Shown piece by piece: positions 13,960-44,114 of a stretch of 64,000 nucleotides of DNA; the first letter of the stretch is position 1; every line of letters begins with the position of its first letter. Where the stretch lies: positions 1-64,000 of the forward strand of contig CALUHX010000002.1 in NCBI GenBank assembly GCA_944320555.1, written 5' to 3'. Under the pieces are notes generated by a model. It saw nothing but the letters and a program-made list of their open reading frames with translations, made no database searches and was not told the origin of the DNA. A program made the translations under genes and the position numbers. This stretch comes from an uncultured Butyricimonas sp. Its GTDB lineage: Bacteria > Bacteroidota > Bacteroidia > Bacteroidales > Marinifilaceae.

Positions 13960-13965
13960 TCCCCC

Positions 13966-14018
13966 GAAAGTGGAAAGATTTGGCTGATTGCAACCACGGA
14001 AAAAAAGTGCTAAAACGC
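13966..14018 (+). ncRNA. SAM-II riboswitch upstream of metK
   Basis: The segment has the conserved pattern of the SAM-II aptamer: a P1 stem GTGG/CCAC (13970-13973 with 13993-13996), the loop GATTTG followed by GATTGCA just before the 3' side of P1, an A-rich spacer, and the conserved GCTAAAA at 14009-14015. The pseudoknot pairing of the GCT in the loop with CGC after GCTAAAA is only partly complementary (two G-C pairs and one mismatch). It lies about 70 bp before the metK start, a logical place for SAM feedback. SAM-II is known from alphaproteobacteria and Bacteroidota. Confidence 0.75.
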
Positions 14019-14089
14019 AAACTTACTTCTGAATTTCAACCATCCATGTACTTTCCTGTAATTTATTAACCACAAAAAACAAATGAATT

Positions 14090-15416: not shown

Positions 15417-15448
15417 AGGGCGACTCAAGTCATTGAGCCGCCCTTTCG
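15417..15448 (+). terminator. Intrinsic terminator of metK
   Basis: GGGCG-A-CTCAA, loop GTCA, TTGAG-C-CGCCC forms an 11-position stem with one A-C mismatch, followed by TTTCG. The T-tract is moderate. Confidence 0.7.
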
Positions 15449-15479: not shown

Positions 15480-15665
15480 GAGGCAAGTTAGGGGTAACGG
15501 GCAGGTAGCTTGGGGGTAGCAAGCATTAAACAAATAATTTCTTATTTATCTGACCCAAGTTTTCTATTTGTAAACAAATAGCAAACAAATAGGAGACAAA
15601 TAGCAGACAAATAGCAGAACCCTTGCTACACCCTCGCTACCCGCCCCCTACCCCCAACTTACCCC
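15480..15665. repeat. Long inverted repeat enclosing four 11-bp direct repeats
   Basis: About 45-bp arms (15480-15523 and 15622-15665) are imperfect inverse copies; the inner ends are GGTAGCAAG and CTTGCTACA. The AT-rich loop contains four successive 11-bp units from 15572 to 15615 (AAACAAATAGC, AAACAAATAGG, AGACAAATAGC, AGACAAATAGC) and a CTATTTGT/ACAAATAG palindrome. No open reading frame explains it. It could be a MITE-like element or a protein-binding site. It fills the space between metK and the next gene. Confidence 0.7.
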
Positions 15666-15733: not shown

Positions 15734-15741
15734 TATCTTTG
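15734..15741 (+). promoter_or_regulatory. -7 promoter box (TATCTTTG) for the GT2-DUF4922 gene
   Basis: TATCTTTG lies 25 bp before the ATG at 15766. It argues against the longer reading frame that starts further upstream at 15670. Confidence 0.65.
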
Positions 15742-22306: not shown

Positions 22307-22314
22307 TACTTTTG
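22307..22314 (+). promoter_or_regulatory. -7 promoter box (TACTTTTG) for the SRP RNA
   Basis: TACTTTTG lies 5 bp before the first predicted base of the SRP RNA. Confidence 0.65.
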
Positions 22315-22318
22315 TGGC

Positions 22319-22418
22319 CGGGTAAGTCCTATGCGACCAGCTCCTGTCGAACTCCCCCAGGGTCGGAAGGCAGCAAGGGTAGATGGTTGTAGCGGTGCGA
22401 CATAGACCGCTTACCCTT
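22319..22418 (+). ncRNA. ffs: Signal recognition particle RNA, 4.5S type
   Basis: Small SRP RNA that binds Ffh for membrane targeting of nascent proteins. The ends pair (GGGTAAG with CTTACCC) and the apical domain contains the conserved asymmetric and symmetric loops in CAGGGTCGGAAGGCAGCAAGGGTA. It lies directly before two tRNA-Thr genes. The ends are estimated from the terminal helix. Confidence 0.88.
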
Positions 22419-22425
22419 TTAAAAC

Positions 22426-43634: not shown

Positions 43635-44114
43635 CTTTTTCTGTTTTTTATTTATTAATACTTCTGTTTGTCAAAAAGCGGTGTCCAAGTCGCCCGTCCG
43701 CCCCCGTTTAGGGTATGTTCATATAGTGTTAATGGTGTGGTCCGTGTATATCTTTGCTCCACTTTCGCGTCACAGTCGTTTCACAGCCGCTCAATCGGGC
43801 GACTTTATCGCGGCTGTAACGCAAACGTGCATCGACTGTATACCCTAAGCACACCCAAAACACACCATGCACACGCCCTAAACGCACCTGCACCTCGCCC
43901 CCGCCGTACTCCTACAAGAAGTTTCATACGCTCCCTCCGGGGTACTCCATCTATCTTAGAGAGAGAGTTAATGAACACAATGTAAAGATTTGAACACCAA
44001 TGTTCATTAACTCCTCCCCTAAGGTAGGGGAGGTGGACGCGAAGCGGACGGAGGAGTATGAATCACCTCCCATTCCGACACAGCCCCATTCCTCCAACTT
44101 TTCAAAACTCGCTC
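43635..44114. other. Noncoding island with nested inverted repeats and a dispersed-repeat copy
   Basis: No gene is visible in these 480 bp. An outer pair TTTAGGGTAT (43707-43716) and ATACCCTAA (43840-43848) encloses a plus-strand TATCTTTG box (43749-43756) and a hairpin ACAGCCGC/GCGGCTGT (43783-43790, 43810-43817). A perfect 12-bp inverted pair AGTTAATGAACA/TGTTCATTAACT is at 43966-43977 and 44001-44012. A hairpin CCTCCCCTA AGG TAGGGGAGG follows at 44013-44033. The stretch 43997-44063 is one copy of the dispersed repeat. It may also be a transcript boundary inside the operon-like block. Confidence 0.55.

Follow-up and report, generated by a model that had tools for sequence, protein, structure and literature searches.

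The hairpin at positions 15482-15664 of the window, the whole 64,000-nucleotide stretch analysed, is probably a copy of a dispersed hairpin repeat that is non-coding and specific to the species. It would be a REP/MITE-like non-autonomous mobile element, and its family one of many in the genus. The element lies between metK and a GT2-DUF4922 gene. Its parts, with the nearest context, are:

15417..15444, no strand assigned: context, a short inverted repeat behind metK, with a terminator-like call on the minus strand only
15482..15529, plus strand: G-rich left arm, in 11-bp phase, with GGGGTAAC, GGTAGC and GGGGGTAGC units
15564..15571, minus strand: core of a single inverted unit, CTATTTGT, which complements each of the four direct units
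15574..15617, plus strand: four direct 11-bp units of the ACAAATAGCAR type
15618..15664, plus strand: C-rich right arm, with CTACCC units that carry on the 11-bp phase
15734..15741, plus strand: context, TATCTTTG, 70 bp past the element

The four ACAAATAG units start at 15574, 15585, 15596 and 15607, the exact 11-bp steps that an earlier, sequence-only reading had described, and a stray ACAAATAA is present at 15529-15536. The array scores 30 of 33 at lag 11; the best of 50 block-shuffled windows scores 23. That reading framed the repeats in an AT-rich loop. The four units do lie there, but the 11-bp rhythm also runs through the arms. Lag-11 identity is 0.47 in the left arm (versus 0.19-0.28 at lags 8-10 and 12-14), 0.74 in the right arm (versus 0.32-0.46 at the same lags) and, for the element as a whole, 0.57 (versus 0.48 at lag 22 and 0.25-0.38 at lags 5-10 and 12-21). 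Arms and array are in one common 11-bp phase.

The long inverted repeat is confirmed, with arms of about 45 bp that are imperfect and have a best ungapped core of 16 nt at 88 percent. Folded as single-stranded DNA with the arms paired, the element reaches -41.3 kcal/mol, compared with -24.4 ± 3.1 for shuffled sequences (z -5.5), and 0 of 200 shuffles are as stable. The proposed foldable hairpin is borne out by this value and by pairing retained among copies. The sequence-only reading knew no matching family, and Rfam likewise has none at gathering score on 15482-15664, with five matches elsewhere in the window. A SAM-II riboswitch is found at window 13964-14023, just 5' of metK, and window 22313-22420 holds a Bacteroidales small SRP RNA, with two tRNAs after it.

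Searching the genome of origin (G000) with the element and one diverged copy as queries places this family, family 1, at 24 distinct sites. Copies are 66-91 percent alike, and some are partial or cut by contig ends. The family has the short, multi-copy, non-coding and intergenic character of a MITE: 0 of the 20 copies checked overlap genes called by a home-made codon-usage gene finder, a count that leaves out C3, C7, C26 and C59, of which the C3 copy also proved intergenic. An exact 22-mer of two units has no match in viral contigs, among which records near the window's genome are possibly excluded; a phage origin was rejected on this result.

Family 1 is limited in distribution. No match is found in 34 of 38 relatives, and G022, G032 and G038 each have one short, weak match (E 0.003-0.007). 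The only convincing match is one related element, with GATCCGTAG-type units, in G001, the only same-genus genome among the 38. Two family-1 sites, C44 and C26, are comparable with G001; neither has an array at its G001 counterpart, and in neither case do the flanks line up as those of an empty site would. No empty-site pair intact on both sides was found. Absence from close relatives, which the sequence-only reading had named as grounds for refuting its proposal, is thus what is seen for this specific sequence.

Anatomy was compared across 19 of the 24 copies. Four units are present in 18 of these and five in one. The core is ACAAATAG in twelve copies (A type); in the other seven (B type), units 2-4 have GTCAATAG and unit 1 has a related core. 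These two subfamilies may reflect few events. Linkers that differ from unit to unit are largely retained across both types; after unit 2 the linker opens with GA in 9 of 12 A-type and 7 of 7 B-type copies, and after unit 4 it opens with CA in 19 of 19. C31 and C39 each hold two family-1 copies, and at C31, C39 and C55 the same arrangement recurs, a B copy and then an A copy about 205 bp apart, which looks like the copying of a composite.

Hairpin pairing extends to 95.4 percent of cells across the copies. Cells changed on both sides number 26, versus 10.0 in shuffles (0/500), and the covariation score, for a structure predicted from that very alignment, is 0.204 versus 0.127 in shuffles (0/500) and at most 0.080 when slid. 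Two of the five measures, pairs changed on both sides (4 versus 3.5) and further pair types (12 versus 12.2), are no better than shuffles.

A repeated sequence end, presumably that of an insertion sequence (IS) given its repetition and open frame, occurs seven times in the assembly. Five of the occurrences are close to the start or end of a contig, no more than about 76 bases away. For six of the seven, a hairpin copy is found at a distance of 0-59 bp. Five of these six are beside family-1 copies and one (C24) is beside a hairpin of the second family; the seventh occurrence (C20) lies in other sequence. The probability of at least six of seven by chance is 2e-15, under the crude assumption of uniform placement and 27 targets, each 340 bp long. 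In G001, the related element abuts this end as well. With six of seven ends so placed, the IS-like element shows an apparent preference for insertion at the hairpin repeat. The 47 residues of the IS-like end match no Pfam family, and no plasmid match was found.

The second hairpin family is composed of 11-bp units of unrelated sequence. At C24 it has a ACTCGGAGNNA array with CCCACACATAT arms, and C3 and C9 provide two further good matches. Its copies in G000 are:

C24:76-243, second-family hairpin
C3:48104-48261, second-family hairpin
C9:56577-56742, second-family hairpin

Period-11 intergenic repeats are apparently a wider, undescribed class. Tandem similarity was scanned at each lag, blind to sequence, with a threshold of 70 percent identity over 30 bases. 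The scan returned 32 lag-11 hits in 855,712 bases of G000, window included, and 32 in 781,793 bases of G001, and in each genome 32 of 32 are intergenic. The remaining non-triplet lags from 7 to 26 gave 0-2 hits, save lag 22 (9 in G000, 6 in G001). Triplet lags gave 23 and 9 hits at lag 12 and 16 and 4 at lag 21 (G000 and G001), mostly within called genes. The lag-11 result replicates between batches, with 11/11 and 16/16 hits intergenic in G000, excluding one stretch picked for its known copies, and 18/18 and 14/14 in G001. Block-shuffled second batches gave 0 lag-11 hits.

Merged hits form 27 arrays in G000 and 29 in G001, about 30 per Mb, including one at L254 in a 38-bp gap that may be within a gene split by the gene finder. 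A period-11/22 tandem repeat reported by Tandem Repeats Finder at window 43842-43893 falls under the array threshold used here. Unit sequences differ between loci. BLAST with 250-bp flanks gives 25 clusters, 11 of 2-12 members and 14 single, though shared flanks may join some. In 28 of 56 arrays, an 8-mer of the array recurs in inverted form no more than 60 bp away, versus 4.4 expected from shuffled flanks. The median fold z is -2.44, versus -0.64 for random intergenic pieces, and values below -2 are found in 34 of 56 arrays versus 13 of 56 pieces.

One further family has 20 sites in G001 and 0 in G000, and another has 9 in G000 and 0 in G001. Both are absent from 12 other genomes of the bacterial family (E at most 1e-4). 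Judged from these sequence comparisons, families appear to turn over fast. At G001 L193 1909-2250 and L274 17864-18200, two different hairpin elements stand in a row, with a common 338 bp at 80 percent. A group II intron beside the L193 and L274 arrays was considered and rejected, as Rfam gives no hit there.

Other lineages have few lag-11 arrays or none in the stretches scanned. There are 0 hits in 200 kb of G007, 200 kb of G013, 282 kb of other genomes of the bacterial family, 194 kb of Marinilabiliales-like and sediment loci, and 50 kb of E. coli. Single hits occur in 49 kb from four Odoribacteraceae loci and in 180 kb of other Bacteroidales loci. Bacteroidaceae loci (365 kb) have 2 lag-11 versus 14 lag-22 hits. 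This tabulation by lineage took 71 of the 80 loci with GT2 homologues. The G007 and G013 stretches (L198-L217) are enriched in period-7/14 arrays in place of 11, and G009 has long 22-bp arrays at L231 1398-1816 and L230 3046-3275. Tandem 22-bp arrays of differing sequences are found within 600 bp upstream of the GT2 homologue at L092, L101, L103, L109 and L121 (Bacteroides/Phocaeicola); weaker arrays occur in some neighbours.

The nearest known system appears to be the BrickBuilt MITE of Porphyromonas gingivalis. In the available passages of its description, BrickBuilt is intergenic, has 19 copies per genome and is limited to P. gingivalis and P. gulae (PMC4596501). It is made up of 1 to 22.8 tandem direct 23-nt units with inverted ends, forms long stem-loops, and carries 12-nt terminal inverted repeats that resemble the ends of IS5-family elements (PMC4596501). 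The same passages report no copy bisected by a full-length transposable element, and place PgRS, a 41-nt family, next to BrickBuilt's one sequence family (PMC4596501). As far as these passages go, the present element is likewise intergenic and multi-copy in Bacteroidales, with direct repeats inside a stem-loop framed by inverted arms. It differs in that family 1 has four units of 11 bp rather than 23-nt units, no counterpart to the 12-nt IS5-like terminal repeats was found here, and many families occur at one period rather than one family (plus PgRS).

REP sequences are dispersed extragenic palindromes that serve as insertion hot spots for particular IS elements, according to the portion of the source available (PMC1525189). 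In the accessible part of another report, REPs are short palindromes tied to Y1 transposases (RAYT) (PMC2817692). On these partial descriptions, the family-1 repeats share with REPs the dispersed extragenic position and an apparent role as insertion hot spot, here for an IS-like element, but REPs are short palindromes and no RAYT was found in the genome of origin. PF01797 (RAYT, Y1 REP-associated transposase) has 0 matches in that genome, which is 96.69 percent complete, and matches 5 of 14 control genomes. A RAYT-driven REP system was rejected on this absence.

TAACTGA heptamer repeats, in the passages available, are abundant intergenic direct repeats of fixed period in Beggiatoaceae, cyanobacteria and some Bacteroidetes (PMC4679880). 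Their period is 7 bp, they are built from one heptamer, and in the Beggiatoaceae genome they lie mostly near start codons (PMC4679880). Within those passages, the plentiful intergenic direct repeats of fixed period are the point in common with the 11-bp arrays; the 7-bp period, the single sequence and a description without a fold-back partner are the differences (PMC4679880). A MITE with minisatellite units in the same order, REPs as IS targets and fixed-period heptamers were already known, and the period-11 class is apparently undescribed. No account of intergenic arrays with a period of 11 or 22 bp in Bacteroidales turned up in the open-access literature, with subscription papers and preprints outside the scope of the search.

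Under the preferred reading, families would share a building rule, not a sequence. The rule would be several direct 11-bp units, often with at least one inverted unit added that lets the strand fold back on itself; the arms of family 1 follow the same 11-bp phase. Spread would most likely be as non-autonomous REP/MITE-like elements, copied by an enzyme supplied in trans that may recognise the fold or the regularly spaced units. Families would diverge and be replaced, so that each species has its own set, and hairpins once present would act as landing sites for the IS-like element. Beside the observed dispersal, intergenic position, fold, 11-bp phase, species-limited families and association with IS-like ends, we infer the mobility, the trans-acting enzyme and the fold recognition. 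As a guess, the 11-bp period could be one turn of an A-form duplex, or the spacing of protein along one helical face. No target-site duplication was recognised on the inspected flanks, and no parent transposase is linked to the family-1 element. Copies have no sharp common end; their ends vary by whole units, though the arms pair.

Arrays might instead be written in place, by slippage or fold-back copying with an 11-nt step that homogenises local intergenic DNA, leaving multi-copy families secondary. This is unlikely, though it fits the exact period despite unrelated units, the inverted copies beside direct ones (28/56) and the one family-1 copy that is off by exactly one unit. It also fits orthologous regions with different families. 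At L167/L181 both flanking genes are orthologous and the arrays are of different families (CGTTTC-type versus CCGTATTAATA-type), L176/L195 are orthologous intergenic regions with arrays of different families, and L165/L190 is a further orthologous site pair with arrays of different families, spotted by eye. Across 201 gene sides (104 ortholog pairs), an array is present in both genomes at 4, in G000 only at 4, in G001 only at 6 and in neither at 187 (Fisher 2e-4). Requiring 150 bp or more in both gaps leaves counts of 4, 3, 3 and 29 (p 0.012), and p is 0.024 at 250 bp or more and 0.036 at 400 bp or more. Because the four double cases stem from two G000 arrays, each counted twice, site sharing is suggestive only. 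This tendency of array regions to match between species with a different family, drawn from few and partly dependent sites, speaks against pure mobility and could mean in-place origin. Against writing in place, many arrays are mutual copies, with 11 of 25 clusters having 2-12 members and three families having 20, 9 and 24 sites. Moreover, the core changed from ACAAATAG to GTCAATAG in units 2-4 with the unit-specific linkers largely kept, and simple slippage would erase linker differences.

Iterated sites on one helical face, as the sequence-only reading proposed, are possible. It is quite unlikely that the arrays serve an oligomerising chromosome-organising or regulatory protein as binding sites spaced by one helical turn, with the hairpin secondary. 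This reading agrees with the constant 11-bp spacing, with the count of four units in 18 of the 19 aligned family-1 copies and with a unit core that changes in concert from one subfamily to the other, and also with a weak shared motif whose information content exceeds that of 100/100 permuted and 100/100 random sets. In cross-validation, however, the motif fails when trained on G000 and tested on G001, where 403 of 500 nulls equal or beat it, and gives a weak pass in the opposite direction (10/500); a common 11-mer behind all families was rejected as weak on this failure. Nor is a conserved core with a free spacer the general rule. That candidate was rejected because 879 of 2000 permutations were as clustered, in a test of 32 of 37 representative units that left out five arrays under 44 nt. 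Unit divergence is also too great for one ordinary protein. A local role for metK or the GT2-DUF4922 gene, as a cis-regulatory, attenuator or terminator element, is very unlikely, even with the hairpin's position between the two. The original case for a control element of the GT2-DUF4922 gene is weak: the proposed search for other copies returned 24 dispersed places beside unrelated genes, and the G001 GT2 gene is without the element. None is seen 5' of GT2 in the other Odoribacteraceae loci shown either, and the upstream neighbour differs there. The GT2-DUF4922 protein has as best named match a 63 percent identical protein from an uncultured Butyricimonas MAG, which places the host with Butyricimonas/Odoribacter. 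As metK adjoins GT2 in 0 of 80 homologue loci, no empty site can be read there, and the G001 sequence analysed does not include metK. In favour of a local role, some Bacteroidaceae carry 22-bp arrays, different in sequence, no more than 600 bp upstream of their GT2 homologues, a placement shared by 5 of the 10 lag-22 arrays found in the 80 loci. Family 1 also leans to convergent gaps: the 14 copies with both neighbours called lie in 8 co-directional, 5 convergent and 1 divergent gaps, versus 175, 38 and 64 of the 277 gaps of at least 100 bp in the G000 sample, the copies being few and their sites partly shared. Class-wide, contexts roughly track gap supply, and no plus-strand terminator is called at the element. 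TATCTTTG fits TAnnTTTG, the Bacteroidetes -7 promoter motif, and a sigma-70 scan has no match at that site (15734..15741).

Beyond the preferred reading of a dispersed, REP/MITE-like hairpin repeat, a broader and doubtful proposal concerns the whole set of fold-back arrays, about 30 per Mb, in which only the 11-bp step is invariant. An activity that measures 11 bp, for instance by one A-form duplex turn or a primer-length copying step, would write or rewrite arrays at preferred intergenic sites, so that positions outlast sequences. The step would differ in related lineages, being 22 bp in Bacteroidaceae and 7 bp in two other genomes of the bacterial family. A class of repeats defined by an exact period and not by sequence escapes ordinary homology searches, and so may be widespread yet unnoticed. 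Should the period stem from machinery for copying or binding, the 11-bp ruler (or the 22-bp and 7-bp rulers) would be a handle by which to find that machinery. The arrays are apparent hot spots for the IS-like element and coincide with several assembly breaks, and they thus bear on genome plasticity in gut Bacteroidales.
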